From Sphingomonadales bacterium (GTDB taxonomy: Bacteria > Bacteroidota > Bacteroidia > Flavobacteriales_D > Crocinitomicaceae), in assembly GCA_016872115.1 (NCBI GenBank), contig VHBC01000002.1, positions 1 to 64,000 on the forward strand: DNA of 64,000 nucleotides, given 5' to 3'. The position numbers and the translations under genes are program-made. The first letter of the stretch is position 1, and the number at the start of each line of letters is the position of its first letter. Shown here piece after piece: positions 3 through 48,162 of the stretch. The notes beneath the pieces are model-generated. The model saw only the letters and a program-made list of their open reading frames with translations, made no database searches and was not told the origin of the DNA.

Positions 3-3000
3 GGATCACTTTCATTGTCAACTTGGATTTATCCCAATACCAGTACGCTTGGGAGCGGGCAAGATGTGATTGTATCCAAAGAAAGTTCTACATTAACAAA
101 TATTCTTGGCGCATACACGCTATGGATGGAAAACGGAGTACCCAAATTTACAGTATCAAATCAAAATGGAGTACCAAGTTGGTATCAAACAGCTACCGCT
201 GCAAATGCCTTGAATGCAAATACTTGGTATCACCTTACAGGTGTGATCAATTTTCAATTGAATCGAATTGAGTTATACGTAAATGGTACTTTGGTCGGTA
301 CACAAACTTGGGGTGGTACAATTGCTAGTAATGTGAATGGTCGATTGTTAATCGGATCACATTTTAAGTCCAATTTTGGTTCACAGTACATGTATAATTT
401 TGGGGGGCATCTGGACGACATCGCTATCTGGAATCGCGCTTTAACTGCCTCAGAAATCCAACAGCTTTACACGCTTGGCAATGCTACCTACAGCTGGAGC
501 CCAGGTGGAGCAACAACGCCTTCAATAACAGTTTCACCGTCAAGCACCACAACATACACATGTACCGCGACTGCTAATGGCGTAAGCTCGACTTCGAGCA
601 GTGTAGTAACTGTTACTCCCGCACCAACCATCACCGCAACCAACACAACAGTTTGTGCTGGGCAAAGTACGACGCTAACGGCGGGTACGACATCTACCGG
701 TTCGGGCTCCAACTGCCCTACCCTTTCTGGTTCTTTGACAACTGGCCTTGTGGGCTACTGGCCGTTCTGTGGGAACGCAAATGATGCATCAGGAAATGGA
801 AATAATGGAACGGTGAATGGAGCGACATTGACTGTCGATAGGAATGGTGCTTTCAATTCAGCGTTCTCATTTGATGGATTATCTAATTATATTTCTGGGA
901 ACATAGCTAATTTTTCTAATACTTCAATTACTTCATTATCAGTATGGGCAAAGTATATAGGTGACGCAGGGGGGCAGCCCTATGATTTATTTTTCCAGTA
1001 TGGCGCATATGGTAGCCATACTTTTTCCTACGCCTATAACTACTTCGCTCAAAACATAGATTTTTATTCACAGTGTTTTACAAACCCTTATTCTAGTGTA
1101 AATCTTCAGAATAATTGGCATCACATTGTTGTTGTAGATTCGCTCCAATACACGAAAATATATATAGACGGTGCAATATTTAACAATTCAGTTTCTGGAA
1201 GTAATGGTAATTGCTATCAAGGCAGTAACTATTTTTTAATCGGGGGCGGGGGAGATAACCAATATACAACCGGATCATTAGACGACATCGCCATCTGGAA
1301 TCGCGCTTTAACTGCCTCAGAAATTCAAGCCCTGTATACTACTGGCCAAACGACTTATTCCTGGTCTAACGGTGCCACAACTCCTTCAATAACCGTTTCA
1401 CCGACCACTACAACCACCTATACTTGTACGGTAACCGATGCGAATGGAAATATTTGTACGGTTGATCAAACTATTACTGTCAATCCAATACCAACTGTAA
1501 ATGCTGGCGCGGATATCAGCGTATGTTCAGGGTCAACAGCAACATTAACTGCAACAGGTGCAGCGAGCTATTCCTGGACCAATAACGTTCAAAATGGGGT
1601 GGCATTTACGCCTACAAGCACGGCAACATATACAGTTACAGGAACTAGCAATGGATGTACAGCAACTGATGCTGTTACTGTTACTGTTACACCCGCACCA
1701 ACCATCACTGCAACCAACACTACAATTTGCGCTGGTCAAAGTACGACGCTTACAGCAAATACAACATCTACAGGTTCAGGCTCTAACTGCCCTACCCTTT
1801 CTGGTTCTTTGACAACTGGCCTCGTTGGCTACTGGCCTTTCTGTGGAAACGCGAATGATGCATCAGGAAATGGAAATAATGGAACGGTAAACGGTGCTAC
1901 GTTAACCACCGACCGCTTTGGTAATGCGAGTAGTGCGTATAGTTTTGATGGGGTTGATGATTATATTTCAGGGACAACTACAAATCTTTCAGTCCAATCA
2001 ACAGACAAACTTACAATGACCGCCTGGGTAAAAGTAAATCAGTTCGCACCCTCACCGGCTGCATCTAAAATTATAACACATACTGATAATTTGAATAATG
2101 GTCAGCAATACGCTCTTTCTATTGGAAATGATGGCTCACTTTACTTTCTTGCTGGAAATGGAGACTTTGAGAATAACGGACCTAATTCAACTTTACCTAG
2201 CCAAATTACAATTGATACTTGGAAACACGTAGGAGCTGTAATCTCAGACGATTCAGTCAAATTATTTGTTGATGGCGTCATGGTATTTGGTAAAGCTGAA
2301 ATCGATGTCTTTCCCGCTAACCCAGTTGGAAATTTTATTTTTTCCTCTTTAACAAATTCAACATTTAATAAGCTATTTAATGGAACCATCGACGACATCG
2401 CCATCTGGAACCGGGCTTTAACTGCCTCAGAAATTCAAGCCCTGTATACTACTGGCCAAACGACTTATTCCTGGTCTAACGGTGCCACAACTCCATCAAT
2501 AACCGTTACGCCGACTACGACAACTACATATACTTGTACGGTGACCGATGCGAATGGAAACAGCTGTTCGGTTGATCAAACAATTACCATAGTACCATTC
2601 AATGGGGTAAATGCCGGTACTGACCAAACAATTTGCGCCGGTGGTTCGGTGAGCTTAACAGCAACGGGTGCCACGACCTATTCTTGGAATAACAACGTTC
2701 AGAATGGCGTTGCTTTTTCACCGGTAGCTACTTCGAATTATATTGTGACCGGTACACAAAACGGTTGTACCGATGCTGACACCGTTCTGGTAACGGTGGT
2801 TGCTGACCCGGTTACAACTAGCCCGGCAGCGGCGAGCTATTGTCAAAATGGCGGCAGCGTAACACCCTTAGCTGTGAATGTTTCCGGAGGAATTGTGGGC
2901 GCATATGCCTATCAATGGTATGCGAATACAAGTGTGAATAATTTTGGTGGCAGCCCTGTTTTGGGTGCTACAACAGCAAGCTACACTCCTCCGATTTCAG

Positions 3001-6000
3001 CAGTTGGAACTACTTATTATTATTGTACGATTACACAAGGCGGGGCCAATAGTGGCTGTTTGGCAACCTCTGGTGCGAATGGCATTGTGGTTTATGCGCA
3101 GCCGAGCATTACTAGTCAGCCACTTGCCAACCAAAGTGGTTGTATTGGTGCAGCTTTAACGCCACTGAATGTGACGCTAACAGGTGGCAACGGGACGCCA
3201 AGTTATCAATGGTATTCCAATACGGTTTCGAGTACGACTGGCGGTATGGTAATTCCTGGAGCTAACACTTCTAGCTATTCAGCTCCGAATACAAGTGCAG
3301 GAACCAACTATTTTTATTGTGTAGCAAGTTTTGCCAATGCACCTTCTTGCGCTACCCAAACTTCTAGTCTTTCAACGATTGCTCTGATCAACGACCCTAT
3401 TTTTAGTGTGCCACCAACAGCAAACCAGTCAGTTTGTGTGGGAGGCACTATTGCTGCACTTACGTTTAGTAGCACGGGCGGTAGCGGAACTGCTAGCTAT
3501 CAGTGGTATGCTGTAAACGGCAGTACTTATACGACTATTTTAGGTGCGACAAACCCAAGTTACACGCCACCTATTTTCAATATTGCAGGCAATTACGCAT
3601 ACGCTGTTGCGGTGACACAAGCGGGCAATGGTTGTGCATCTGGTTACTCACCACTCGCGAATGTCACTGTTGTCAATGATCCGAATGTTTCTAGCCCAAC
3701 GGGCTCTAATTATTGTCAAGGCGGGGCTGTTAGCAATCCGTTGAGCGTAAGTGCTACTGGTGGTATCAATAGCGCTTATACTTATCAGTGGTATAGCAAT
3801 GGCGCAAACAACAATACCACCGGTATTGCCATTCCAGGTGCTACCGCCGCCAACTACACGCCGCCAACTGGAAATATCGGTACGATGTATTATTATTGTC
3901 AGGTTAGCCAAGGAGCAGGTTGCTTATCGAGTTCACCAACTGCTAACATTACCGTGGTGGCCGGCCCAGCGCTTAGCAGCCAATCACTTGGCTCTCAAAG
4001 CGTTTGCGTTGGGGCAACTTTAAATGCCTACAGCGTTTCTTACACTGGTGGAACCGGAACACCCAGCTATCAATGGTACAGTTCGGCAAGCAACTCAACA
4101 ATTAACGGAACGGCTATCTCGGGTGCTATAGCTGCTAATTATACTCCAGGAGCAAATGCTGTTGGGCAAACCTACTATTATTGTGTGCTAACTTTCAATT
4201 CATTAACGGGCTGTTCTACGCTGACATCAAATGCGGGCCAAGTCAATATTATTACCAACCCGACGTTTAGCATAGCACCACTCACTTCTCAGACCATATG
4301 TCAAGGGGCCAACCCTCAAACATTGAGTTTTACAATAACTGGTGGCTCAGGTACCGCAACTTACCAATGGTACAATGTAGTAAATAGCAATTACACGCCA
4401 ATTATTGGTGCCAATGGCCTGACCTACACCCCTTCTGCTAGTTTGCCTGCCGGAACCTATAATTATGCAGTTGCCATGACCCAAAACGCCAGCGGCTGTA
4501 GTACTGGTTTTTCTTCAAATTCACAATTGGTTGTCTTGCCGCAACCAGTGGTAAGCACGCCACAAGGAGGTGTTTATTGTCAGGGCGGAAGTATCTCACA
4601 ACCTTTGAGTGTGAGCGTCACAGGAGGGAATGGTGCTAGCAACTACCAATGGTATCAGAGTACCATCAATAACAATAGTGGCGGAACTGCCATCAGCGGC
4701 GCTACGAATAGCACCTTTACACCTTCATTGTTGAATTTTGGTACTTTATACTATTACTGTGTGGTTACACAAAATGCTGGTTGTACAGCAACTTCAGCAG
4801 TAGCTACTGTCGTTAGCAACCCGAGTCCTGTGATAAGTACACAGCCCACAGCTAATCAAACAATCTGTGTAGGTTCTACACCTACTCCGCTCACAACGAG
4901 CTATACAGGTGGGGTTGGCGCGCCAAGTTACCAGTGGTTTGTCAATAGTCAAAATACAACGCTTGGCGGCAGCCCAATTAGCGGCGCCACAAGCAACACG
5001 TATATCCCAAGCAACCAAGTTGGTTTGGGTAGCAACTACTATTATTGTGTGGTCACGCTATCCAACAGCAGCTGCCCACAAGCAACAACCAATGTTGCCG
5101 CTGTGAACACAGTTGCCAATCCGAGTATGAACGGGCCAACGAGCGCCACGTACTGTCAGAGTACAAGCGCTGCTCAACCACTCAGCGTTAGTGCCAGCGG
5201 TGGAAATGGAACGAGCTATAACTACCAATGGTACAATAATGTGAACAACGCTAACTTTGGCGGCAGCCCTATTTCTGGCGCTACCAACGCCAGTTTTACA
5301 CCAAGTATCAATGGCAGCAGCACCTATTATTACTGTGTGGTTACCCAACCAGGTGGCTGCCTCTCTGCGTCTTCAGTTGCCGCTATAGCCATTGAGCCAA
5401 GCCCGAGTATTACAAGCCAACCGCTTGTTGGGCAAACCCTTTGTGTTGGCGGTACGCCGCAAGCACTTGCCATTACTACTATTGGTGGCGTGAGCAATCC
5501 AAGCTACCAATGGTATAGCAATACCGTCAATACGATTACGAATGCACAAGCAATTGCCAACGCTACTAGCCCTAACTTCAGCCCTACAGCGGTTTCGAGC
5601 ACAGGAACCACTTATTATTTCTGCCAAGTAAGTTATGCTGCCAATAGCGCCTGCCCTACTTTGGTTTCAAATGCCGCAACGATTATTGTTGTATCAGACC
5701 CGCTCATGAGCAACCCAACTGGCGCAACTTATTGTCAGAATGCAGCGAGCGTTTCGCCTTTGACGGTTAATGCCAGTGGTGGAATCAATGTAGGTTACGC
5801 ATACCAATGGTATAGTAATAGTAGCAATTCAAACATTGGTGGTACCGCAATTGTGGGTGCCACAAGTAACAATTACTTCCCAGTTGTCAACCAATTGGGA
5901 ACCACTTACTATTACTGCGAAGTGACACAAGGTAGCGGCTGTAATGCAAGTTCGGCAACTGCGGCAGTGGTTGTTGGCGTAGCAGCTAGTATTGCGCAGC

Positions 6001-7631
6001 AACCTACGGCCAGCCAGAACATTTGTTTAGGACAAAGCGCTACAACGCTCACCGTTGGTGTTACGGCAGGGAATTATACCCTTAGTTACCAATGGTACAG
6101 CAATGTCAACAACAATAACTTTGGAGGCACGCTCATTGTTGGTGCTACCAACGCCTTTTATACGCCACCAAGCTCAGTTCTTGGCACCGAGTATTATTAC
6201 TGCGTGATCAGCGTTGCTGGAGGCGGTTGTGGTACACTCACAACAAATACAGCTGCGATCAATGTGGTAAGTGCTCCGTCAATGTTCCAACCCAATAACC
6301 AAACGGTTTGTTGTCAGGTTGGAACGGCGCCTATCTCATTTGTAGGCAACGCAAACAGCTACACTTGGACAGCAAGCGGAAGCTCACCACTATTGACTGG
6401 TTACACTGCAAATGGCGTCGGAGATATTCCTGCGCTGACGCTCACCAATAATAGCTCAACCCCGCAAAACGTAGTTTATTTAGTAATACCGAGCAACCAA
6501 GGTTGTAATGGAACACCGGTGCAGTTCAGCATCAATGTCATGCCTTGTTTGTCGGTGAGCACGCCTTCTGCTCAATATTACTGCGCACAAAATACAGTGA
6601 GCTCTTATGTATTCAGCGGTGTAGGCTCGAGCTTTAATTGGGTGAATTCCAACCCTTCTATTGGCTTGCAAAACGCAGGTGTCAATTTTGTTCCCAATTT
6701 TGTCGCTCAAAATTCCACAACAACTACCCAAACTGCGACTATAACCGTTACGCCAAGCTTTATGGGCTGTGCAGGCACTGCGCAATCCTATACAATTACA
6801 GTATATCCGCTACCTATTGTAAACGCAGGCGTTGACCAAGCGGTTTGTTCAGGTGGCAGCGTCACACTTACCGCAAGTGGTGCGCCTAATTTAACCTGGG
6901 ATAACGGCATTGTAAATGGCCAAACATTTATACCAAATGCCAGCACGACTTACACAGTAACCGGTACCGATACTAATGGCTGCCAAAGTCAAGACGCCGT
7001 TTTTGTTCAGGTGAACCAGCCAACGAGCGCTACTTTGAATATCACCGCTTGTGATAGCTACACGCTCAATGGCCAAACCTACACACAAAGCGGTAATTAC
7101 GATCAATTGCTCTCGAACTCAGCTGGCTGCGACTCTTCACTTACACTGAACCTCAGTTTGAACTTCTCGCCAAACCAGCCAACTATTTATGTCCAAAACC
7201 AAGTCAATTTGTCTACCGATTTGATCCCGGGCTTGACTTATCAGTGGATTACCTGTTCTGACCTCACGCCAATTGCTGGCCAGACTGCCATTACCTACAA
7301 CCCAAGCTCAAATGGTGTTTATGCTGTTGTCGTCACAAATAACTGTGGGTCTGACACTTCACTGTGCACTAGCATTACAACGATCGGTTTAGAAGAAAGT
7401 CTGCTTGAAGTATTCGAACTCTACCCTAATCCGAACAACGGTAGTTTCACCATTGAAATTCCGGAAGCTTGGATCGGAAAACAAGCCTTGATTTACGATA
7501 TGCAAGGCCGTTTACTAACTAAGCTGGATTTAACAGCGAAAAAATCTCAGATTGAAATGAATAACTTTGCACGCGGCGCTTATTGGCTACAAATTGACAA
7601 CGAAGTACCGGTCAAATGGATGAAAAATTAA
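3..7631 (+). CDS. Giant LamG/Ig-like secreted adhesin, type A T9SS tail (5' end cut by window)
   Basis: This is the 3' part of a surface or secreted adhesin-like protein. The frame is open to the window edge, and the residues before the first possible start (GSLSLSTWIYPN) already belong to a LamG domain, so the true start lies upstream. Visible layout: the end of one LamG domain (to about residue 155), two complete LamG domains (about 235-435 and 595-800) each ending DDIAIWNRALTASEIQ, and short Ig-like linkers (TYSWSNGATTPSITV). Next come twelve Ig-like modules of 80-95 residues with YQWY cores and paired cysteines (about 930-2090), four further Ig/PKD-like modules, and a type A type IX sorting domain (ELYPNPNNGSFTIEIP to the C-terminus). 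LamG domains usually bind sugars or proteins, so a role in adhesion is inferred. No catalytic domain is seen in the visible part. The next giant gene follows after 32 bp. Confidence 0.88.
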   Translation, partial: GSLSLSTWIYPNTSTLGSGQDVIVSKESSTLTNILGAYTLWMENGVPKFTVSNQNGVPSWYQTATAANALNANTWYHLTGVINFQLNRIELYVNGTLVGTQTWGGTIASNVNGRLLIGSHFKSNFGSQYMYNFGGHLDDIAIWNRALTASEIQQLYTLGNATYSWSPGGATTPSITVSPSSTTTYTCTATANGVSSTSSSVVTVTPAPTITATNTTVCAGQSTTLTAGTTSTGSGSNCPTLSGSLTTGLVGYWPFCGNANDASGNGNNGTVNGATLTVDRNGAFNSAFSFDGLSNYISGNIANFSNTSITSLSVWAKYIGDAGGQPYDLFFQYGAYGSHTFSYAYNYFAQNIDFYSQCFTNPYSSVNLQNNWHHIVVVDSLQYTKIYIDGAIFNNSVSGSNGNCYQGSNYFLIGGGGDNQYTTGSLDDIAIWNRALTASEIQALYTTGQTTYSWSNGATTPSITVSPTTTTTYTCTVTDANGNICTVDQTITVNPIPTVNAGADISVCSGSTATLTATGAASYSWTNNVQNGVAFTPTSTATYTVTGTSNGCTATDAVTVTVTPAPTITATNTTICAGQSTTLTANTTSTGSGSNCPTLSGSLTTGLVGYWPFCGNANDASGNGNNGTVNGATLTTDRFGNASSAYSFDGVDDYISGTTTNLSVQSTDKLTMTAWVKVNQFAPSPAASKIITHTDNLNNGQQYALSIGNDGSLYFLAGNGDFENNGPNSTLPSQITIDTWKHVGAVISDDSVKLFVDGVMVFGKAEIDVFPANPVGNFIFSSLTNSTFNKLFNGTIDDIAIWNRALTASEIQALYTTGQTTYSWSNGATTPSITVTPTTTTTYTCTVTDANGNSCSVDQTITIVPFNGVNAGTDQTICAGGSVSLTATGATTYSWNNNVQNGVAFSPVATSNYIVTGTQNGCTDADTVLVTVVADPVTTSPAAASYCQNGGSVTPLAVNVSGGIVGAYAYQWYANTSVNNFGGSPVLGATTASYTPPISAVGTTYYYCTITQGGANSGCLATSGANGIVVYAQPSITSQPLANQSGCIGAALTPLNVTLTGGNGTPSYQWYSNTVSSTTGGMVIPGANTSSYSAPNTSAGTNYFYCVASFANAPSCATQTSSLSTIALINDPIFSVPPTANQSVCVGGTIAALTFSSTGGSGTASYQWYAVNGSTYTTILGATNPSYTPPIFNIAGNYAYAVAVTQAGNGCASGYSPLANVTVVNDPNVSSPTGSNYCQGGAVSNPLSVSATGGINSAYTYQWYSNGANNNTTGIAIPGATAANYTPPTGNIGTMYYYCQVSQGAGCLSSSPTANITVVAGPALSSQSLGSQSVCVGATLNAYSVSYTGGTGTPSYQWYSSASNSTINGTAISGAIAANYTPGANAVGQTYYYCVLTFNSLTGCSTLTSNAGQVNIITNPTFSIAPLTSQTICQGANPQTLSFTITGGSGTATYQWYNVVNSNYTPIIGANGLTYTPSASLPAGTYNYAVAMTQNASGCSTGFSSNSQLVVLPQPVVSTPQGGVYCQGGSISQPLSVSVTGGNGASNYQWYQSTINNNSGGTAISGATNSTFTPSLLNFGTLYYYCVVTQNAGCTATSAVATVVSNPSPVISTQPTANQTICVGSTPTPLTTSYTGGVGAPSYQWFVNSQNTTLGGSPISGATSNTYIPSNQVGLGSNYYYCVVTLSNSSCPQATTNVAAVNTVANPSMNGPTSATYCQSTSAAQPLSVSASGGNGTSYNYQWYNNVNNANFGGSPISGATNASFTPSINGSSTYYYCVVTQPGGCLSASSVAAIAIEPSPSITSQPLVGQTLCVGGTPQALAITTIGGVSNPSYQWYSNTVNTITNAQAIANATSPNFSPTAVSSTGTTYYFCQVSYAANSACPTLVSNAATIIVVSDPLMSNPTGATYCQNAASVSPLTVNASGGINVGYAYQWYSNSSNSNIGGTAIVGATSNNYFPVVNQLGTTYYYCEVTQGSGCNASSATAAVVVGVAASIAQQPTASQNICLGQSATTLTVGVTAGNYTLSYQWYSNVNNNNFGGTLIVGATNAFYTPPSSVLGTEYYYCVISVAGGGCGTLTTNTAAINVVSAPSMFQPNNQTVCCQVGTAPISFVGNANSYTWTASGSSPLLTGYTANGVGDIPALTLTNNSSTPQNVVYLVIPSNQGCNGTPVQFSINVMPCLSVSTPSAQYYCAQNTVSSYVFSGVGSSFNWVNSNPSIGLQNAGVNFVPNFVAQNSTTTTQTATITVTPSFMGCAGTAQSYTITVYPLPIVNAGVDQAVCSGGSVTLTASGAPNLTWDNGIVNGQTFIPNASTTYTVTGTDTNGCQSQDAVFVQVNQPTSATLNITACDSYTLNGQTYTQSGNYDQLLSNSAGCDSSLTLNLSLNFSPNQPTIYVQNQVNLSTDLIPGLTYQWITCSDLTPIAGQTAITYNPSSNGVYAVVVTNNCGSDTSLCTSITTIGLEESLLEVFELYPNPNNGSFTIEIPEAWIGKQALIYDMQGRLLTKLDLTAKKSQIEMNNFARGAYWLQIDNEVPVKWMKN
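618..814 (+). repeat. LamG-entry repeat, copy 1
   Basis: This segment of about 197 bp encodes the Ig-like lead-in and the conserved first strand of the second LamG domain (LVGYWPFCGNANDASGNGNN). It recurs 1074 bp downstream with high nucleotide identity, including many identical synonymous codons. The LamG core that follows is quite different in the two copies. Confidence 0.8.
1281..1383 (+). repeat. LamG-exit repeat, copy 1
   Basis: This segment encodes the conserved LamG end (DDIAIWNRALTASEIQALYT) and the start of the Ig-like linker. It matches the copy 1110 bp downstream with only two mismatches over about 100 bp. A more diverged version lies near position 414. Confidence 0.85.
1692..1888 (+). 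repeat. LamG-entry repeat, copy 2
   Basis: This is the second copy of the segment leading into a LamG domain, in register with copy 1 at an offset of 1074 bp. Most differences are synonymous. Confidence 0.8.
2391..2493 (+). repeat. LamG-exit repeat, copy 2
   Basis: This is an almost identical copy of the LamG-exit segment at 1281. The flanks of the LamG cassettes are near-identical while their cores are not. Confidence 0.85.
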
Positions 7632-7663: not shown

Positions 7664-10600
7664 ATGCGAACAAAACTACAAGCTCCACTCTCCCAATACA
7701 AGCAAATTTCAAATCCCCGTTTGCAGTTCCTATTTGGGCTATTTGCTTTGATTTGGATGCAGATCACCAATGCACAAACTGTTTCATTAGGTGGCAATCA
7801 AATTATTTGCTCTGGGAGTAATACAGCGACAGTTAGTGCTACTTTAAACAATCTTGGAAGTTTAACAGTACTCTCCTACTCTTGGACGGTCGAAGGGGTT
7901 GCGGCTGGGACAAGCTCGTCAACAAGCATCACCGTAAATGCCAGTTTAAGCCCGAATAATCCGCAGGAAGTAATTTGTGTGGCAGCACTTTCCAATGCTA
8001 CGAATATTTCAGATACTGTTCTCATATATACGCTTTCCCCTGGTGTAATAGCAGGTGATCAATTTTCGTGTACTTCTCCATTTAACCCAAGTGCATTTAC
8101 AAGTAGCAATAGTGGTACAACTTCACTAACTGGAGCCTCGATTTCCTACCAATGGCAAAGTTCCACTGATGGCACAACATGGACGAATATTAGTGGTCAG
8201 ACAAACGCAACCTATAATCCAAACTCCATTAGTACCTCTACCTTCTTCAGAAGGGCAATTATTTGCACGGTAGGTAGCCTTAGTCAAACATGTTATTCGA
8301 ACAGTGTTTTTATACAAGTATTAAATACACCGACGATAAGTGCTGTACCATGCATCAATAATGGCGCAACTGCGAGCCTAAGTGTAAACTTCAACCCAGC
8401 TCTCCCATCCGGATTCAGCGCAACCTACCAATGGTCTGGACCGAATAACTTTAGTGGTTCGACTTCGACAGTAAGTGTTCCTAACTTTTCTCAAAGCAAT
8501 GTCGGAAACTACTATGCAAATGTGACTGTTTCGGGAAATGGTCATACTTGTAATTATCCATTTTTAAGTACCACAATAAATTTAAACCCAAATACGCCAA
8601 GTTTCACCTTACCTACCAATGGTTGCCCAGGAACAAATTACATTCCATTATCATTCACTCCGCAAGCTGGGGTAAGTTACCAATGGTCGGTATCTCCATC
8701 GAGTAATAGCACCGGCCTATCTACGAGTAACCCATCTTTTTACTTTTCGAATAGTGGTACTTATACCGTTTCAGTATTTTCGGTGAGTAATCTCGGAAAT
8801 TGCCAATCGAGCACTATTACACAAAATATCATAATACCTAATTTGACAAATATTCTACCTAGCGTAGATGGTTCAGAGCCATTGCAAGTAATCAATGGCG
8901 TTAACACTCTAGCGATTTGTTCGGGTGCTAGTACCTCAAATGCCTTGGTATTCAACGATAATTTTGGCGGAACCAATCCGACCAATACAACATATGCCTA
9001 TACTTTAAATAATGGCCCGAGCATTCCAATTTTAGGTAGCGCATCTGTTCCAATAACTTATGGTAGCAATTTGTTTACTCTTACTGCTACCAGCGGTACA
9101 TGTTCTTTATCGAATACCGTTAACATTTATTCTGGTTCGAATCCGTTTGTTGCCCTTGGAGCAAATAACTCGATAAGCCTCTGTCCGGGGAGTATCGTGA
9201 ATTTTGTCATTGACCCAACACAAAGCATTGGTGTCAACAACCCTCCAGGAACAACCTATTCCTTGGTATTCAGTGACGTCGCTGGCTCATCCAACTTCAC
9301 AAATTTACTGAATGACACCATCATTGCGCATCAATACAACACTACCACTTGTGGTGTATCCAATGCGGGAACAACGTTTCCAAACAATACCTATTATGCT
9401 GTTGTTACGGCACAAAACCCTTGTGGAACTACTCAGAGTTTCTACTCTCCAATCACGGTTCACAACCTACCTACTGCAAACTTCACTGTTTCTGATTCTA
9501 CTATATGCGCCGGTCAAACAATCACAGTTACAAACACTGGTAACGCAGGATCAATAGTTGGGACAAACTCACCCTACAGCTGTACAACTCAGGGTAAATT
9601 CTATTGGACAATAACCGGTGGTACATTAGGAACAAACTTTACCTTAGGTTCCGGACAAACACTTGGGTCATACTGTGCCCCTCCAAATTGTTCTTGGAAT
9701 AGCACTGCATCAAATGGTTCAGGTACATTAAACATCTCTTTTTTAACAGCAGGCACGTACACTATTACTCAACATTATTACAACAGTTGCGGTACCAAAA
9801 CAAAAGTTCGTAACATTTGCGTCATTAACCCGCCGACTTGTCAATTTACAGCGACTCCTTCGAGCGGTTGTACCCCTTTGACGGTAGCGATCAATAATAC
9901 GACAGTGGCACCAACATGCGGAGGAACACATGTGCCGCTGACTTACGCTTGGACAGTTACTTCACCTTCGGGAACCACTGCGAGTTATACAACTAGCTCC
10001 GCGCAAGCTCCGCCTAATTTGGAGTTGACGAACCCTACGACTTCTCCACAAACATTCACGATTTCTTTGACGGTTTCACCCAAAGATCCCTACAATACTT
10101 CTGCCAATTTTGGAAATCCAAATTGCACTTCTACTTGTACACAGACAGTTATAGTAAATCCAAAGCCAATATATACGCCAAGCAGCTTGAGTACTTGTAA
10201 TGACCCCTTTCAATTAAACATTAATTTACAAAGTACTACCAACCTAGCGAATTCAACTTTTAATTGGTCTGCGACAAATAATTTAAATATTGCGGGTGAA
10301 TCAACAAGTAATCAAACTTCTGGTATCATTAACGATAACCTTGACAACACTTCAACAAGTTTTCAAACCGTAACCTACACGGTGACGCCTACTTCAAATT
10401 TAGGTTGTGTAGGTAACGCAGCTACTTTTACTGTAACACTTAATTATGTTGATGCAGGGCTTGTGTCAAGTGATCAAACGATTTGTAGTGGAACCAGCCC
10501 GGCGTTACTTACTGGAACTTCGCCAAGCGGCGCGGGAACGTTAAGTTACCAATGGCAGAGCTCTACAAATGGAACAACCTGGACCAATATCAGTGGTGCA

Positions 10601-13600
10601 ACAAGTGCGTCATTTCAGCCTGGAAATTTAAGTGCAAATACCTATTATAGAAGAATTGTTAATTACGTTTCAAATTCGGTGACCTGTACAGGAACGTCGA
10701 ATTCAGTATTGATCACCATCAATGCAATTACACCCGGAACAATTAGTGCCACTCAAAACCTTTGTACCGGAGATGACCCAGCAGCACTCAACGTCGTGAC
10801 AGGAGCTACAGGCATAGGCACAACAACTTTCATTTGGCAACAAAGTAGTAATTCCACCGGTCCATGGACTTCAATATTAGGGCAAACTGGATCTACCTAT
10901 GACCCTCCTGTACTAGGAAGCACTACTTATTTTTCTATTGCCGCAACAAGCGTGTTGAACAACGTAAGTTGTAGTGCTAATTCACCATCAATTGCAGTCA
11001 ATATTTACTCACTTTTACCAGGTTCTATAACTAATCCTGAAACCATTTGTGAGGGCGGAAACCTAGTTGCATTCACCAGTACCAATGCAAGTTCGAATGC
11101 ACCAACTGTTGCATATCAATGGCAGTCTTCAACAGATAACCTGAATTGGGCTAATATCACAGGTGCCACGAGTGCCACTTATGACCCACCTGCCTTAACA
11201 ACTACTACCTATTATCGCCGACTCGTAAATGCTTTAGTTGGTGGTACTGTCATTTGTCAAGGGCAATCAAATACGATTACGGTTACAGTTGTTCCTGACC
11301 CAACGGTTTCTGCGCCGACCGGCCAAACCATCTGTAACGGTGGTACGCCAATAGCCTTTTCTGTAACGGCGAGTGGAGGAATAAATACAAGTTATAGCTA
11401 TCAATGGTATAGTAATTCTCCGAATGCTAATACGATAATTACTGGTGCAAACGCTGCAACCTTTACGCCTCCAGCTTCAAATGGAACCTATTATTGCCAA
11501 GTAACAATCAACCCTGCAGCTTCAACCGGCTGTAGTGTCAATTCCTCAAATGCCACAATTACTGTTGTCAACGACCCGGCAGTTACAGGACCAACAGGCG
11601 CAAGTTATTGCCAAGACGCAGCCTCGGTAAGTGCCTTGAGCGTAAGTGCAAGTGGTGGCCTGAGTACCAATTATACTTATCAATGGTATAGTAATTCTCC
11701 GAATGCTAATACGATAATTACTGGTGCAAATGCTGCAACCTTTACGCCACCCGTAAATGCAGTGGGTACAATTAACTATTATTGTTTGGTGAGCATTGCT
11801 CCTGCAACTACCGGTTGTTCGACAGCATCTAATGTTGCATCTATTGCAGTAACAGCAGGGCCATCGGTATCAAGTCAGCCTGCGAATCAAACGCGTTGTA
11901 TTGGAGGTACTTTTACTGCACTTAGTTTTACAAGTTCAGGTGGTTCGGGTACCCCAACCTATCAATGGTACAGCAACTCCACAAATAGCAATACCGGAGG
12001 AACCCTTATTTCAGGTGCAACAAGTGCAACCTACACTCCTCCTTCTAGTTTGAGTGCAACGGCAGGTGTAACATACTTTTATTGTGTAGTTAGTTTCAGT
12101 TCAACAGGTGGGTGTTCAGTTATAAGTACAAATGCAACGGCAATTACTGTCTTGGCCTCACCAACAGTGAATCCTATCTCCAATCAAGTATTTTGTAAAA
12201 ATACTATTGCTCCTGCAACAGCAATAAGCGCCAACTACAGTTCAGGCATGACCTATGCTTGGTCTTTAACTGGCTCTAGTGTAGGACTTACTCCTACCTC
12301 CGGAAGCACAGGTACAATTCCGAGCTTCACAACTGTTAATAATGGCACTGCGCCATTAACGGCTATTGTAAACATCACGCCCACTTATACCACTGGTAGT
12401 TTGGTCTGTGCGGGAAGCCCAACTGCTGCTTACACCATCACCGTCAACCCGACACCAGTGATGTCGCAATTTAACCCGATGTTATTTGTATTCTGTGAAA
12501 ATGCTACAGGAACGGTTCCATTTAGCTCGAATATTTCAAGTAACATGTCTTATTCTTGGACAAATGACAATACACTTATTGGTTTGGGTGCAAACGGCAC
12601 AAGCACAAGCCCTGGTGCTGGGATTTCATTTTTAGCGGTTAATAACTCTAATCAGCCCCTGACTTCCAACTTGATGGTGACGCCAAGTTATACAAATGGC
12701 GGGGTTTCTTGCCCTGGAACAGCAGTACCTTTTGCAATTACAGTAAACCCATTACCTGATGTGATTCCGTTGCCAGATTATACAATCTGCGCAACTAGTA
12801 CAGGATCCAATCAGTTTTCTAGTTTGTATCCAATTATTGGTTTGGGAACAACTTATGCTTGGTCAAACTCCAACCCAGCAATTGGGATGGCTGCCTCAGG
12901 CAATGGTTCACATTTTTTCACAGCGACAAATACCTCATTGGTTCCGATTACCGGTACGGTAACTGTTACGCCAACTTATACCAACAATGGGGTCACTTGT
13001 ACCGGTGCGCAAGATCAGTTTGTAATTACCGTTAACCCGATGCCAACCGTAAACGCAATTGCCAACCAAGGCTTATGTGTTGGCAGCTCGACAACAGCGG
13101 TAACTCCTACAGGAAATATACCTGGAACACTCTATACCTGGACAAATAACAACACGAGTACAGGCCTTGGAAGTGGCGCAACGGGGACCATACCAGCTTT
13201 TATTGGCTTGAACACTACAAACGCACCAAACGTTTCGACGGTGAGTGTTGTTCCGAGTTATACTTACAATAACATTACTTGTACAGGAACAGCAGCACAG
13301 TTTGGAATCACTATCAACCCGACACCAAATGTGAATGCCGTTGTAGATCAGCAGGTCTGTGCTCAAAGTAATGCCAGCGTGCAGTTTAGTTCTACACCAA
13401 ATATTGTTGGAACAGTATATACCTGGACCAACAATAACACTGCAATTGGCCTTGCGGCTTCCGGAACGGGTGCTTTGTCTTTCAACGCTACAAATACCAC
13501 AAGTTCACCAATTAGTGCTACAATTACCGTGACGCCAAGTTTTACCTTTGCAGGCAGCACTTGTACTGGGCTTGCTGACACTTTCAATATCGTTGTTTTG

Positions 13601-16600
13601 CCAACGCCTGTGATGACTGCAATAAGTAATCAAACTTTGTGTAGCGGCACCGCAACCAATGTGATTAATTTCAGTTCCAACTTGACAGGGACACAATATG
13701 CTTGGACCAATTCTAATCTGACCATTGGTCTTGGGGCTTCCGGAGCAGGAAATAATATTGGCTCGTTTAATGTAACAAATACAGGCACCGCACCTTCTCA
13801 AGGGCTTATCAGCGTTGCTCCATCTTTAGTTACCAATAACCAAACATGTATTGGTTCGCCTGTAACTGCAACGATTACGGTGAATCCGATTCCAGTGATG
13901 AACCCAGTGAATAATCCTTCATTCTGTTTCGGTACTGCTGCTTCCATTCCATTGAGTTCAAATATCAATTCGGGTGTAACGTATAATTGGACAAACTCAA
14001 ATACCGGTATTGGTTTAGGTCAGAATGGAACAGGTAGCATTAGTTTTTCGACTCAAAATTCATTTTCCACACCAATTTCAGGACTCATTACCGTGAGCCC
14101 CGTTTATACAAACAACAATGTGCAATGTACAGGAAATCCCTCAAGTTTCACTGTCCAAATAGCACCAAACCCACAAGTAACTCCACTAAACAATATTGAT
14201 TTTTGTAGCGGCATTCAAACTACCCCAATAACCATAAGTGGAACGGTTACCGGTGCAACTTATTCATGGACTAACGCCAATCCTGCAATAGGCTTGCAGG
14301 CCACAGGCTCGGGTAATATTCCTGTTTTTACTACGGCCAATGCCAGTACTACCTCAGTAGCAAGTTCTTTGGTGACAGTAACGCCTAACCTTTCCTTTAA
14401 TGGTCAATCTTGTCAAGGACCTTCAACTACGTTCACCATATCCATCAACCCTGGAACTACGATAAATAGCGTACCAAATGTTCAATTATGTAATGGTGAA
14501 ACAAGTTTGCCTATTAGCTTCTCGGGAAGTGGAACAACTTATGCTTGGAGTAGCAGCAATACCAATATAGGAATTGCTAGCAATGGTGTTACGTCTATTC
14601 AACCATTTGTTGCTACAAATACAGGTACAACACCTCTAAATGCAACAATTACTGTTACCTCGCAATTTACTGGTGGAAGCGGTAACGGATGTAATGGTGG
14701 AAGTACGACATTTAACATTGAAGTGCTCCCCACACCTTCGGTTGTTGACCCACCTAACCTTGTTGTTTGTCACGGAAATACGGTAAATGCAGTAAATCTT
14801 TATGGGGTTGCGACCAATTATACTTGGACAAACAACACAAGCAGTATTGGCCTGACAAATACCGGAACAACAGCAACTATACCGTCGTTTACGGCAACTA
14901 ATACAGGAAATAATCCGGTTTTGGCTACGGTAAATATCAGTCCGAGCTTTGTTTCGGGAACAAAAGTTTGTACAGGGGTCTCACAATCATACACCATTAA
15001 CGTGATTCCAATTCCTACGATAACTTCCCAACCTCAAAGTCAAACAGTCTGTATTGGTGGTAGTTTAACCAATCTTTCGGTCGCGTATGCCGGAGGAAAT
15101 GGCACGCCAACTTATCAATGGTATAGTTCTGCAACAAATAGTACTGCTAGCGGAGTTGCTATCTCAGGTGCAAATAGCGCAGCATATGCCTTACCTGCTG
15201 CCAATGCAGTCGGGACTACCTATTATTATTGTATTTTAACATTTGCAAATGCAGCTACTTGTTCAACAATCTCTTCCAATTTAGCGGCAATCACCATCAC
15301 AAGTGGACCAACGATCAGCACCCAACCTTTAGCTAGTCAATCTATCTGTGTGGGTGGTTCAATTCCAGCACCATTGAGCGTTGCATTCACAAACGGAACA
15401 GGAAATGCAACTATACAATGGTATAGTGTATCTGGAGGAACTAATACAATAATTACTGGGGCAAACTCGGTGAATTATTTACCTGGTGTATTCAATAGCG
15501 TGGGCACATTTAGTTTCATGGCTCAAATTTCCTTAAGCGGAAGCGGTTGTGGCCTCGCTCAGTCAAATACAGTTCAGGTGAATGTGCTTGCAGATCCAAC
15601 CGTTTCAAACCCTGCATCTGCTTCCTATTGTTTGAATTCAAGCACTGCTGTACCTTTGACTGTTACGGCAAATGGCGGAACAAGCACGCCGTATGCTTAC
15701 CAATGGTATTCAAATGTGGTAAACAACAACACATCAGGCACGCTGATTTCGGGTGCCAATGCTGCAAGTTATATTCCATCAACCAATACCGTAGCCACTA
15801 CATACTACTATTGCGTCGTAACACAAGGTAATGGCTGCAGTGTAAGTTCAAATGCAGCCACTATTGCTGTTACAACAGCTCCAACAATAGCTAACCAACC
15901 TATTTCAACCCAAACGGTATGTTTGGATGGCGCGGTATCTTCGTTAGCTGTAAGCTACGCCAGTGGAAGCGGATCACCATCCTATCAATGGTATAGCAAT
16001 AGTCTAAATACGTATGTCGGCGGAGTTGCCATCCCAGGAGCCGCAAGCGCCACATATATGCCTCTAACAAGTTCGGTCGGAACCATCTATTATTACTGCG
16101 TTATCACCTTCGCTTCTAGCGGATGTTCCGCTATTTCATCAAATATTTCGCAAATTACGGTTGTTGCAGACCCTTCAATCACTACACAACCTTTGAGCAC
16201 ACAAACGATTTGTGGTGGTGGTTCGATTCCAAATGCGCTAAGTGTAGCTTATACTGGCGGAACCGGAACACTGAGTTACCAATGGTATAGTGTAAATAGT
16301 GGCACCAACACCCTTATTGGAGGTGCAACAGCGTCCTCCTACCTCCCACCCGCTTTTAACACGCCAGGCACCTATAACTTTACCGTTCAAGTCACTTTAA
16401 GTGGGAGTGGTTGTGGAATGGTGCAATCCAATAATGCACAGGTTATTGTGCTACCAGACCCTACGGTTTCAGCACCAGTTGCTGCAACTTATTGTAACGG
16501 TTACACGCCTGTACAGCCGCTAAGCGTTACTCCAAATGGAGGGCTAACAGCCGCATATACTTATCAATGGTATAGCAATACGGTCAATTCTAATTCAGGA

Positions 16601-19600
16601 GGCACCCTCATAAATGGAGCTACAGCAGCAACTTATACACCTTCTGTTTCAACGAATGGCTCCGTATATTACTATTGCGTCGTTAGCCAAGGTGCCGCGA
16701 ACACAGGTTGTTCTGTTGCCTCGGCAACTGCCTTGATCATTACTTCGCCAGCACCAGCTATAGCCACACAACCTTTGAGTATGCAAACTGCTTGTGTGGG
16801 CGGAACGCTTTCCAATTTAACGGTAAGTTACACAGGGGCTAGCACAACCCCAAGTTACCAATGGTATAGCAATTCAGTGAATGCCAATACCGGCGGAAAC
16901 CCTATCCCGGGTGCTACCACCGCTAGTTACTTACCGCAGAGTACAACTACTGGGACTGTTTACTATTATTGTGTTATCAGTTTCCCGGCAATTAGTTGTA
17001 CAACAATTAGCTCCAACCCTGGCGGTGTAACCATTCATCCTGACCCAATCATTTCGGTTCAGCCAATTGCCAACCAAGCAGTTTGTTTTGGAACCACACT
17101 TGGCGCACCACTTACCATTTCTTACACAGGAGGTTATGGCACCCCAAGTTACCAATGGAATTTAGTGAACGGAAGCACTACTTCTGCCATTCAAAATGCC
17201 ACTAATGCAAGTTACTTACCCGGCTCTTTCAACGTAGCCGGTGCCTACAACTTTAATGTCACTTTAACACTGTCGGGAAATGGCTGTAATGTCCAAACAT
17301 CCAATTTAGCACAAGTTGTAGTAATGCCGATTCCAGTTGTGGATTCTGTGGGCTCCTACCTATACTGTAATGCCGACACGGCAGACATGGTTGTTTTCAG
17401 TGGCCCTATTGCCGGCACAACTTACATTTGGTCCAATGACAATCCTGGTATTGGCTTGCCAGCCAGTGGCTTTGGAAATATTATGCCATTCGAGGTAACC
17501 AACATGAATAATTTTGGTATAATCGGTAATATCAGCGTTACGCCGCAACTCACTAACCTCAATACAACTTGCTCCGGAACACCTGTCTCGTTCCAAATCA
17601 TGGTGAATCCATACCAAGACGTTCAGGACCCCCAAGATTTGGTCTTGTGTCACGGAACGGGTGTCAATGGCGTCCAGTTCTTTGGTTCAGCACTCATTAA
17701 TAATTGGACCAATGATTTACCTGCTTTAGGTGTACCTGCATCCGGATCTGGTACTTTACCAGCGTTTTTAGCGGTTAACAACGGCACCCAACCCATCATA
17801 GCAAATCTGAGTGTCACGCCATCGTTCAATGGAGTAACAACTTGCCCAGGTGATATCGAAACATTTACGATTACCATTCTTCCGAATCCGAATGTTTCTG
17901 TTACACCTGCCGTTCAAACGGTTTGTAGCGGTGACTTAACAGCCACAATTAACATGAGTGGAACAGCGACAAGTTTCGCTTGGACCAACAACACGCCTTC
18001 CATTGGTTTGGCAGCAAATGGCACTGGTAATATTCCTGCGTTTTTAACAAGCGCTACAGGTTCAAATACAACGGCTACCATAGCAGTTACTCCTTTGTAC
18101 ACATTAGGTACGGTATCTTGTCCGGGGCCTTCACAAAATGTCCAGATCACGGTCGTACCGACACCAAGTACACTTCCGTTGCCAGATTTGGTTTATTGTA
18201 ACGGTGAAGCAACTAACCTCATCCAAATTCTGGGGAATGCCAGCGAACTCAATTGGAGCAGCAGCAACCCAAGTATTGGAACAGCAGCACTCGGTTCAGG
18301 CTCGATCGCATCATTCAACGTAATTAATCCAACACAGAGCCCAATAAGTACGGTAATTACAGTTACTCCAGTTAACTTCTTTGGTGGCCTCACTTGTATG
18401 GCGCCTGCAGAAGATTTTTCCATAACTGTAAATCCGACCCCAACGATTAATCCTATTCCAGACCAAGTGCTATGTGCCCAATCAAATTCTCCGGCAATGC
18501 TTTTTTCTGGAAATGCAACGAGCTTTGAATGGTCCAACACCAATACTGCAATTGGTTTGAGTGCAACAGGTTTAGGAAATATTAGCTCTTTTGTAACACA
18601 AAACGCCTTGCCTTCAGTGCTTTCTGCCAACATAAGTGTTGTCCCTCAATTCACGAATGCAGGGCTGACTTGTGAGGGTACGCCAGAATTGTTTGTACTC
18701 GACATTTTACCCTTACCAACGCTCACCACTGTAAATCCACAGGTGTTGTGTAACGGAACTGCCACGGCTCCTATCAATTTTGTAGGAAATGCCACCAACT
18801 ATGCTTGGATCAATAATAACACCACAATTGGTTTAGCAGCAGCTGGATCTGGCGATATCGCTGGCTTCAATGCCATTGCTGGCGCAACGAATAACGTAGC
18901 AAATATCGTCATTACGCCGTCATACACTTACAATAGTACAACGTGTTTTGGAACGCCAGTTTCAACATCCATTACGGTCTTACCTAGTCCGTATATCAAC
19001 ACAGTGCAAGATGTTGTAACATGTAACGGCGATTTATCCGGAGTATTAGCTTTCTCTGGAACAGCAACAAGTTTCAATTGGACAAACTCGAACCCAGCAA
19101 TTGGTTTGGCAGCTAGCGGCAGCGGGAACCTCCCAGTGTTTAGCAATACGAATACAAGTAGCAATCCGCTTTTGGCAACAATTACTGTGACGCCACAAAC
19201 TGCGCAAGGCATACAAACGTGTCAAGGCACACCGGAAATCTTTACCATAACAGTAAACCCAACTCCTACTGTAAATACGGTGAGTTCGCAATTGATCTGT
19301 AGCCAAAACCAGTCGCAGCCTGTCGTTTTTACAGGTAACGCTAGTACGTATACGTGGCTAAATAGCAACACGAGTATCGGCTTACCGTCATTCGGAAATG
19401 GAAATATCCCTGCCTTTACTGCTACAAATACTGGCGTAAATACAGCAATTGCTCAGATTCAAGTTACGCCGCAATACACCAATGCAGGGGCAACTTGTAC
19501 CGGTGCGCCGCAGAACTTTACATTTAGCGTTGACCCAATACCTGCTGTTCAATACAGCCAAATTGGCCAAGCTATTTGTACTGGAACAGCCACCGCTGCG

Positions 19601-22600
19601 GTCAACCTAAGTTCTACCACGCCTGGTGTGACTTTTGGTTGGACTATCCTCAATCCGTCGCCTGCAATCACAGGAATTCCAACCATGAACGGAACAGGAT
19701 CTCTTCCAAGTATGACACTTGTCAATTCAGGCTCGACAAGTGCGCAGTTTAATTTCCTAGGAATGGCTACCACTCCGTTGGTTGGTTGTGTAGGTTACGG
19801 AGCACTCGGCACCATTACCGTTGATCCTGCTCCTGTCATGCAGCCATTAAACGACCTTACCATTTGTAGCAATGCTCAGATCAATTACAATTTAGTTGCC
19901 AGTCTTCCATCGACATTTAGTTGGACGGCAAGCGCAAATACAAACGTTGTTGGGCAACCAAGCGGAACAGTAAACTCCAACTTGATATACAACACACTGC
20001 AAAACAATGCGAGTACCCTACAATATGTCACCTATACGGTCACCCCTACCTCTTTTCCAACAGGCTGTGTTGGTTTACCTGAAACTTTCGTTGCAGAAGT
20101 CGTTCCGAACATCCAAATTACCAGTTTGGCTAACTACGAAATTTGTAGCGGTGAGCCAACAGATATTACCTTACAATCTAATCTGCCGGGTAATTTTAGC
20201 TTCTCAGCAGTAAGTAATCCAAATGTACAAGGAGAGTCTGTCAATTCACAAAACGGATTCTATATCAATGACATCCTAAGCAACACAACCTCTTACGATC
20301 AGATCGTTACTTATAACGTTCAAGTTGTTTCGAGTCCATATAATTGTTATGGCTTACCTCAAACGATTGCTGTCGAGGTGCACCCTGAAATTTCAATTAC
20401 GAATGCTTCGCCCACACAAATATGCAGTGGTGCGCCACTGAGCCTGAACCTCACGGCTACAGAAAATGCAAACTTTAGTTGGTATGCCACGCAAAATGGT
20501 TTGGTGAATGGCGAATCTACCACCACTCAAAACAGCAACGTACTCAACGACAACCTAGCGCTTGCGCCAAACGTAAATGCGCATCAGACGGTGCTTTACA
20601 CCATCAGCGCTACCTCAACAGTTACTGGTTGTACAGCGCAAGCATTGCCGCTATCCATCATCGTGAATCCAGTGCCAGTTGTTTCTGCTCTGCCTGATCA
20701 AATGCATTGCGCCGGTGAAGCCACAGATCCGTTGAATTGGACACTCAACGGTACCGCAACCAACTATGCTTGGTCCAACAATAATTCTGCAATAGGCTTG
20801 GCTTTAAACGGCAACGGAAATATTCCGGCTTTCAATGTGATAAATCCCGGACCTCAGACCTTAATATCTACCATTACCGTTACACCACAGTACGTGAACA
20901 ACGGCTTTGTTTGTGCTGGAACAATAGATACGCTCACTATTACCGTGGAGCCTATTCCGAGTATCAGTTATAATATACCTAACCAAGATTTATGTTCTGG
21001 TGAACTCAGCCAAGCAGTTGTAATGAGTTCGCCGAACCCAGGTGCAAGCATTACCTGGACTATCATCAATCCACCACTTACCATTTCGGGCATACCAAAC
21101 CTAACTGGCACCAATCAAATTCCTGCAATGACGCTTTCGAATTCGAGTACAAGTCCGCAGCAAATACTTTTCCAAGGAACAGTAAGTACGCCGCTCAACG
21201 CTTGTGAGTTAGAAGGGCCTATTGGGCAGATAGTTGTCTTGCCTGAACCAGTCATTAGCAATATTAATGATATCACCATTTGTAGCAATGATGTTTTGAG
21301 TGTCGCTATCAATTCTAGTATTCCGGCAACCTTTAGTTGGGGTGCGCAAAATAACCCGAACGTGAATGGTGAATCTATTGGGCCAATTTATTCCAATTTC
21401 ATCTACAACACGCTACTAAATACCTCATCTACGCTCCAATATGTCAATTATACCATTACACCGACCTCAATCAATGGAAACTGTGTTGGTGTAGATGAGG
21501 ACTTTACTGTAGAGGTTATTCCTGATATTGCACTCAATCAGGCTATCACACCACTTCAAGATACGATATGTAGCGGAGAATTGACCAATATTCTATTGCA
21601 AACCAATTACCCTTCATCGATAATTTGGTATGCCATTAATAACCCTAATGTCAGTGGAGAAACAACTACGGCTACTGCCAGTAATTACATTAGTGACATT
21701 TTAGTCAATAATACGCCGTTCAATCAGTATGTGCAATATTATATTGATATGGTAGCTTCACCGCAAGGATGCAATGGCATTCCTGAGCTCATCACCGTGT
21801 TGGTTTATCCTGCCATTCAGCTCACCAACGCAACGAGTATCAACCTTTGTAGCAATGAGCCACTCGATCTCAATTTAGCTGCTACAGTGAATGCCAACTT
21901 TACTTGGTATGCAACGAATAACGGAGTGGTGCAAGGAGAGACCACAACACCGCAAAATACAAGTATCATCAATGATATTTTAGTCAATAACTCTTCTCTG
22001 ACCGAGCAAGTGAATTATGCCGTTGACGTTGTGGCCTTGAATTCTGGCTGTCAGGCTTTTGACCTGCCGATAACAGTCAATGTATTGCCTTTACCCGTTT
22101 TGCTGACGAACGACACCATTATTTGTTCAGGTGAATATACCAACGTGAATTTGGTGACGAATATTCCTTCGAGCATTGTTTGGAACGGCGTATTTAACAT
22201 CCCAATTCTCGGTGAAACCTATGCCAATATTTCCGGCACGTATATTAATGATTTCTTAATCAACAATACGGGGCAAGACGATACTTTGGTATACGAAGTG
22301 TTGGCTACTTCAAACGGTTGTACGGCTCCGCTAGACTCAGTTTTGGTCATCGTACACGACCAACCAGATATCGACTTTAGTATTCTTACAACACCTCTAT
22401 GTTCTGAAGATACCATTCAATTTATCAATTTATCGAATCCGAACTTTGATTTTGACTGGAGTTTTGGCGACGGAGCTACCTCTGTAGTCTATTCACCGAT
22501 CCATATCTATAACAACTCTGGCGTTTATGAAGTCATGTTAGTAGGTACCAACCCACTCAATAATTGTTCGGCGGCAGACTCCACAACGATTGTCGTCAAT

Positions 22601-46375: not shown

Positions 46376-47074
46376 ATGGAAACAAAAAATATCGCTGTTA
46401 TTGGCGCATCGAAAGGAATTGGCTTGGCGCTGGTTCAAAAATTAGCCCAACAAGGACATCAAGTTCTTGCTACTTATGCACAAACCTTACCCACATTTGA
46501 ACACCAAAATGTCAAATGGCAGTCCTATTCAATCTCCGAAGATCAACCACTTGAAATACCAGAAGTGCTCGACGGACTCGTTTATTGCCCGGGCACCATT
46601 TCTTTGAAACCATTCAATCGCTTTAGCACGACCGATTTTCTCTCCGATTACCAACTGCAAGTAGTAGGTGCTGTTCAGGCTATCCAAAACGTCTTACCTG
46701 CTCTAAAAAAGAGCGCACAAGCATCAGTGGTACTTTTCTCCACGGTTGCCGTTCAGCAAGGCTTGCCTTTTCATTCCTTGGTTTCGGCATCTAAAGGCGC
46801 AATTGAAGGCCTTACACGCGCACTTGCTGCTGAATTTGCACCAAAAATTCGCGTCAATGCCATTGCACCTTCTTTAACCAACACGCCTTTGGCAGAAAAT
46901 TTATTGAACTCCGATGCCAAGCGCGAGGCAAACGCCGCTCGGCATCCTTTGAAACGTGTTGGCGAACCTATAGACATCGCCAACATGGCTACTTTCTTAC
47001 TCAATGATGAATCCTCTTGGATGAGTGGTCAAATTCTTCATGTCGATGGTGGAATATCGACATTGCGCGTATGA
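46376..47074 (+). CDS. SDR-fold protein lacking the catalytic tyrosine
   Basis: A 232-residue Rossmann-fold protein of the short-chain dehydrogenase/reductase superfamily. The cofactor motif GASKGIGLALVQKL is intact. The downstream LVYCPGTISLKP corresponds to the NNAG motif, and FSTVAVQQGLPF carries the catalytic Ser. The usual YxxxK reads VSASK (about residues 137-141), so the general-base tyrosine is a valine. The C-terminal RVNAIAPSLTNTPLAE and SGQILHVDGGIS are normal. It heads a three-gene operon with a photolyase-like FAD protein (4-bp overlap) and a photolyase, so it may serve a light or DNA-repair context. Enzymatic activity is uncertain. Confidence 0.87.
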   Translation: METKNIAVIGASKGIGLALVQKLAQQGHQVLATYAQTLPTFEHQNVKWQSYSISEDQPLEIPEVLDGLVYCPGTISLKPFNRFSTTDFLSDYQLQVVGAVQAIQNVLPALKKSAQASVVLFSTVAVQQGLPFHSLVSASKGAIEGLTRALAAEFAPKIRVNAIAPSLTNTPLAENLLNSDAKREANAARHPLKRVGEPIDIANMATFLLNDESSWMSGQILHVDGGISTLRV

Positions 47075-48162
47075 TACCGCTGCGCACGCTTGCTGAAATT
47101 GAGGCGTATATTGATGCCTTCGACCCTATTCGTTATGGTAAAACTAGAAATTACATCAATGGTGGTGTCAGTTATTTATCGCCGTATTTATCCCGGGGTG
47201 TGATCAGTGTGCGCGACGTCTATGAACGGCTCAAAAGACGCGGTTTTAGCCTCTATGAAATGGAGGCGTTTGTTAGCGAACTCTGTTGGCGCGAACACGC
47301 CCAACGCGTGTGGCAGCACCATGATCCGCAAAGAGAACTCAGATCTACACAGTACTGGGTCCACAATCAATCAAAAATTCCAAAAGAACTACTAGAGGCG
47401 AGCACGGGAATAGAAGCGATAGACGCCGCACTCTTAGAACTCAAAGAAACCGGTTACATGCACAACCACATGCGCATGTATTTGGCTGCTATCGCACTTA
47501 ATCATTATGGATGCCATTGGCCCGTGGCCGCAAAATGGCTCTTTTCCCAATTAGCCGATGCCGACCCCGCTAGCAATCATTTGAGTTGGCAGTGGGTGTG
47601 CGGTGCCAATGCACCAAAAGTCTATTTTGCCAATCAAGAAAACATCAATAAATACACGGGTAGCAATCAGCGTCATTCCTTTCTAGATACAACCTACGAA
47701 AAATTACCTCAGCTTCAAATTGCTTGTGAATGGGTAGATGCGTCGTATCCTTTTATTCCGGAGCTGACTGAGCAACTTCAATTGGATGCAAATTTACCAA
47801 CGCACCTTTACACACCATATCACCTCGATCCAACATGGCGTGCACAGTCACCTGCAAACCGCATCTTATTCTGGGACCTCGCTCATTGGCAAGACTACCC
47901 GTTTAACGAAAAGAATTTCAACTGGATCAACGATTTGGCAAGGTTAAACATTCCTGCTATTCAAATTTACGTCGGTCATTGGGAAAACTTAGTTACCGAG
48001 TTAAATCTCCGACAAACCTTTACCAAAGAACATCCACTTACGGAAGGCTACCCCATGCAGAAAGACCCGCGTGGTTGGTTATTCCCCGGATTTGAACAAC
48101 AGCCCGGTTCATTTTTTGGCTTCTGGAAAAAAGTTCAAAAACACCTCAAAAATGAAAAATGA
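47071..48162 (+). CDS. Photolyase-like FAD-binding protein without the antenna domain
   Basis: A 363-residue protein equivalent to the C-terminal FAD-binding half of cryptochrome/photolyase (FAD_binding_7). Its start has no N-terminal alpha/beta antenna domain. Recognisable stretches are [61 protein letters not shown] and [20 protein letters not shown]. These correspond to the flavin pocket and the W..N.HNH.R region of photolyases. The start is the ATG overlapping the SDR stop by 4 bp; the upstream reading overlaps the SDR gene. It overlaps the full photolyase gene by 11 bp. Similar short proteins sit beside photolyases in other bacteria, but their role is unclear. Confidence 0.85.

Follow-up and report, generated by a model that had tools for sequence, protein, structure and literature searches.

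The SprB-type gliding adhesins of Flavobacterium are very large repeat adhesins exported by the type IX secretion system (T9SS). Polymorphic toxins pair a constant scaffold with an exchangeable specificity module that is brought in by recombination. Exchange at the C terminus is among the features described for such toxins (PMC3482391). In Porphyromonas gingivalis, surface proteins that include the T9SS adhesins Kgp and HagA undergo domain rearrangement, allelic exchange, recombination, and gene conversion (PMC5266723); of these processes, the domain rearrangement and allelic exchange constitute the nearest described case that we found. We found no description of LamG core swapping in open-access papers. 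Here, we analyzed a window comprising the first 64 kb of contig C2 of a 2.22-Mb draft genome (G000), which opens inside a gene for a LamG adhesin. Like the SprB-type proteins, which occur in the same order, this adhesin is very large, T9SS exported, and built of repeats, but its feature of interest is the LamG head. It shares with polymorphic toxins a constant scaffold and an exchangeable specificity module; unlike in the toxins, the module is internal, bounded on both sides, present in several tandem copies, and lectin-like rather than toxic. Like the P. gingivalis proteins, it is a Bacteroidota surface adhesin whose adhesin domains are modular and whose C-terminal domain is conserved. The P. 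gingivalis case, however, concerns other adhesin domains that vary among strains of one species, whereas the swapped unit here is the LamG interior between the domain's own edge motifs, with relatives in other families.

Pfam searches of the adhesin gave a layout of LamG cassettes followed by an Ig-like/PKD-like stalk and a type IX secretion tail (Table 1). Three Laminin_G_3 domains (PF13385) were detected (protein E = 1e-49; 169 bits versus a curated cut-off of 27.6), each of which exceeded the cut-off singly, and a C-terminal T9SS sorting domain was present (Por_Secre_tail, E = 5.8e-12). The gene's own 5′ end is missing, but a signal-like N terminus was recognized by eye in orthologues from two congeneric species (G020 and G093). 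An AlphaFold2 model of cassette C (pLDDT = 87.5, pTM = 0.88) adopted a ConA-like jelly-roll fold; its best PDB matches were ConA-like lectin domains (TM = 0.74 to 0.77), and domain 4 of AbnA (5hon), a Laminin_G_3/ConA-like lectin, shares this fold with TM values in the same range. We gave no functional weight to these structural matches or to a weak Pfam match to a clostridial receptor-binding fold, which fell below the cut-off, because the ConA-like fold is generic. On the best reading, this locus supplies the predicted ligand-binding head of a surface adhesin that has an Ig stalk and is secreted by the type IX system.

Table 1. Features of the adhesin gene, in window coordinates
Feature	Position	Strand	Evidence and comparison
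Adhesin gene, 5′-truncated by contig start	3..7631	+	5′-open ORF, at least 2542 aa; Pfam Laminin_G_3 x3, Ig_7, Por_Secre_tail
LamG core A, partial	3..413	+	Closest relative 53% aa, other family (G154); 20-29% versus position A of G020, G093
Flank spanning the cassette A exit, linker, and cassette B entry	414..842	+	Versus G020: 90% aa, 80% nt
Repeat D2 (copy 1), linker plus cassette B entry flank	606..832	+	227 nt, 88% to 1680-1906
LamG core B	843..1280	+	54-55% aa to three family f9 cores; 25% to G020 core B
Repeat D3 (copy 1), cassette B exit flank	1272..1477	+	206 nt, 91% to 2382-2587
Flank spanning the cassette B exit, Ig-like linker, and cassette C entry	1281..1916	+	Versus G020: 88% aa, 76% nt
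Repeat D2 (copy 2), linker plus cassette C entry flank	1680..1906	+	Direct repeat of 606-832
LamG core C	1917..2390	+	62% aa to G134 and G282; 24-26% versus position C of G020, G093
Repeat D3 (copy 2), cassette C exit flank	2382..2587	+	Direct repeat of 1272-1477
Ig-like repeat stalk	2724..7300	+	Ig_7; versus G020 75% aa, 70% nt, synonymous sites saturated
Por_Secre_tail, type IX secretion C-terminal sorting domain	7419..7604	+	ORF residues 2473-2534, E 5.8e-12

Cassette A lies upstream of the range covered by an earlier, sequence-only reading of this DNA; the contig end falls within its core (3 to 413), and its exit begins at 414. The gene rpsF, the upstream neighbor of the orthologue, is found at position 136 of another contig (C7; L275:136), which indicates that the assembly breaks inside the cassette array and lacks the first cassettes. 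Elsewhere in the draft genome, contig C11 carries a short LamG remnant (L012:1787-2173) with a signal-peptide-like start followed by a LamG end that is apparently out of frame; it has the appearance of a LamG gene that has decayed or was misassembled. The gene that follows the adhesin in the window (7664 to 23392) specifies a 5242-aa protein that has numerous PKD-like domains and ends in a CHU_C tail, and its first part is 46% identical to G020, far below the adhesin gene upstream. Further along (47017 to 49696), two adjacent overlapping ORFs each match the DNA photolyase FAD-binding domain.

Within the adhesin gene, the sequence-only reading had described near-identical flanks around unlike cores, including two mismatches in about 100 bp at 1281 versus 2391, and both observations were borne out. 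The two copies of D2 are 88% identical and those of D3 91%, whereas the proteins of cores B and C are 24 to 26% identical, at the level of shuffled sequences (25.7%, SD = 3.7). The stretches at 1281 and 2391 differ at exactly 2 of 100 nt, both synonymous (pS = 0.083, or 8% of synonymous sites over 33 codons); 20,000 pairs of 100-nt stretches drawn at random from this gene's Ig part gave a mean of 25 matches and a maximum of 62. At the exit boundary, identity falls from 27/30 to 11/30 between adjoining 30-nt windows. Each cassette reads as a conserved entry segment (GLVGYWPFCGNANDASGNGNNGTVNGATLTTDR), a core of about 140 to 165 residues, and a conserved exit segment that begins DDIAIWNRALTASEIQALY. 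Motifs at both ends of the LamG domain are conserved across phyla, and the combination of conserved edges with a variable middle is partly a general trait of LamG_3 proteins. GC3 was 0.25 to 0.31 in the cores, 0.34 to 0.45 in the flanks, and 0.42 in the stalk. We dropped low core GC3 as proof of foreign origin because values were also low in a control LamG (0.36) and in a Flavobacterium LamG gene (0.33, with most of its neighbors at 0.39 to 0.50).

To compare matching positions between species, we used the orthologous genes of G020 and G093, with one multi-contig draft genome per species and the locus broken at contig ends in G000 and G093. The G020 gene is complete (2905 aa) and carries four cassettes (0, A, B, and C); the G093 gene carries three, the last of which combines a B/C-like entry with a C-type exit. 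Orthology is supported by the shared upstream gene order (rpsF, the L9 gene, and further genes). Exit flanks at the same position were 79 to 94% identical (aa) across the three species and were significantly more alike at the same than at different positions (86% versus 63%, permutation P = 0.003). Cores, in contrast, were no more alike at the same position (28.9%) than at different ones (28.1%, P = 0.26), with shuffled sequences at 25.7%. Between G000 and G020, flanks were 80 to 90% and cores 22 to 27% identical (aa), and dN differed six- to seventeen-fold; synonymous sites are nearly saturated between these two genomes, and core alignments across species are near random. As a control, the LamG core of a 1155-aa protein was 87 to 88% identical in the same pair, which argues that LamG cores are not fast-evolving as such. 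These comparisons show that cores have been replaced at orthologous positions, the opposite of identical cores between flanks that evolve at the same rate. Matches to the Ig-like linker were evenly spaced at 210 nt in two other genomes (L204, G007:C11 41741-42687; and G049:C3), which suggests long tandem arrays there.

To determine where the cores have relatives, we searched 86 genomes of the genus and 399 genomes of the order (families are given as group codes, such as f1 and f9). At E ≤ 1e-5, neither core A nor core B matched any other genome among the 86 of the genus, and core C had weak matches only (25 to 34% over long stretches, at most 53% over short edge stretches). Among the 399 genomes of the order, by local identity, relatives of core A were found in one f9 genome (G154, 53%), of core B in three f9 genomes (54 to 55%), and of core C in G134 (f9) and G282, which belongs to another genus of the window genome's family (62%). 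Two G020 cores gave closer matches: core A was 69% identical to a core in a Flavobacterium metagenome-assembled genome, and core B shared 86% (aa) and 81.5% (nt) identity with a core from f9 (G170). Core C of G020 had no match at E ≤ 1e-15. The identity of G020 core B with f9 exceeds that of a control gene between G000 and G020 (78.6% aa, 72.4% nt), which suggests, if rates are similar, that a transfer took place after these two species split. Core A of G093, without a close foreign relative, had its best match (44%) in a congener. Because the best relatives are 44 to 86% identical, no recent donor was identified. The cassettes had no match in plasmid DNA; among viral contigs, the only hits were LamGs at about 35% identity or less over most of the domain, with core B drawing no hit, and a carrier role for phages is thus not shown.

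Sliding identity profiles placed the breaks in similarity. Core A of G020 resembles the Flavobacterium sequence only within the cassette, and identity breaks in the exit motif; compared with core A of G093, the profile is the mirror image, high only outside the core. The same mirror image was obtained for G020 core B against G170 and against core B of the window genome, with the exception that the G170 linker is somewhat similar. In a tree of the cores, all three window cores grouped with foreign cores (SH-aLRT = 97 to 100). AU tests rejected position clades for core B (p = 0.0009), for core A with G020 (p = 5e-6), and for core C (p = 0.024); the clade of the G000 and G093 A cores was not rejected (p = 0.12). 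By comparison, these results show that most cores have their nearest relatives in foreign genomes and that similarity breaks near the conserved motifs.

Within genomes, pS between B and C flanks was 0.28 to 0.41 (0.58 for the G020 exit) versus 0.50 to 0.72 between orthologous flanks, and the paralogous B/C flanks of the window genome itself (0.28 to 0.41) lay below the orthologous ones. Flanks are more alike within than between genomes, and cassette number has changed; both features fit exchange among cassettes, by gene conversion or unequal crossing over. The low within-genome pS of the flanks cannot be explained by a duplication dating back to the divergence of the cores.

We therefore consider it very probable that recombination at conserved LamG edge motifs swaps in horizontally acquired cores and that gene conversion keeps the flanks alike. 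The entry and exit segments, although parts of the LamG domain, would double as homology for recombination, which terminal motifs conserved across phyla can offer. Imported DNA from other Flavobacteriales lineages would recombine between the entry and exit motifs, with crossovers in or beside them, and would replace the core in frame with the fold kept. Exchange among the cassettes of a single gene, through gene conversion or unequal crossing over, would homogenize the flanks and alter cassette number. The agent is presumably ordinary RecA-type homologous recombination with imported DNA, and a changed glycan or surface-ligand specificity is a plausible effect, given the lectin fold. The sequence-only reading had proposed that flanks recombine while cores are swapped or diversified. 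Recombining flanks and swapped cores are well supported by the conserved flanks around unrelated cores in three species, the foreign core relatives, and the normal control LamG; diversification by point mutation as the main process is not supported, because most cores have close foreign relatives.

Ordinary descent under unequal constraint would instead have an ancestral duplication whose LamG ends were held by purifying selection while the cores parted through drift, point mutation, and positive selection. Terminal motifs conserved across phyla do imply some edge conservation without recombination, and near-saturated synonymous sites between G000 and G020 leave time for change. However, a control LamG core is 88% identical in the same species pair, other families hold closer relatives of the cores (up to 86%), the motifs are where similarity breaks, and B/C flanks with an 8% synonymous difference (33 codons) sit beside cores that are 24% identical. 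Descent alone is therefore improbable, and the foreign core relatives already largely refute it.

We regard an assembly artefact, in which short reads joined near-identical flank repeats to the wrong cores, as still less probable: the genomes are drafts, the gene is interrupted by contig breaks in G000 and G093, and flank repeats of about 100 nt can mislead short-read assembly, but three genomes that were assembled independently all show the pattern, with the reading frame kept every time. Wrong joins could shuffle B and C but not import cores whose relatives have different flanks, and the window flanks occur at no other place in the G000 draft genome. Least probable of all, and very unlikely in our estimation, is a dedicated programmed system (a diversity-generating retroelement, an invertase shufflon, or a silent cassette store). 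The cassette-like layout with constant borders is what such a system would share with this gene; yet cassette borders carry no inverted repeats, no reverse transcriptase or recombinase was detected among those window ORFs that were scanned with Pfam, and the draft genome holds no silent cassette with the window flanks elsewhere. The cores, moreover, vary in length and along their whole extent, which does not resemble adenine-directed change confined to a short variable region.

Core replacement by recombination at edge motifs would provide a concrete case in which what is exchanged is a domain's interior rather than an entire gene or one end of a protein, and in which similarity breaks at motifs conserved in LamG proteins of several phyla. 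It suggests that a cell changes what it sticks to by exchanging the binding part alone, and it makes testable how environmental Bacteroidota change adhesion targets: lectin specificity is predicted to track the core rather than the species. A caution also follows: calling orthologues by their LamG flanks gives a misleading picture of function. More tentatively, and with less than even confidence, we propose that Flavobacteriales LamG domains form a shared cross-family pool of interchangeable cores, with the widely conserved terminal motifs as recombination handles through which one homologous event could give any LamG adhesin a new ligand specificity. Two congeners, G025 (L193:6263) and G097 (L260:8491), share a LamG core at 76% identity (aa) and have exit flanks that are 53% identical, an apparent further core exchange, so the process may be general. 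In the quick version of a tree of all 86 cores, a LamG core of another congener (G068, L263:3631) groups with one from an uncultured Eudoraea (Flavobacteriaceae; L072:8006), to which it is 49% identical (aa).
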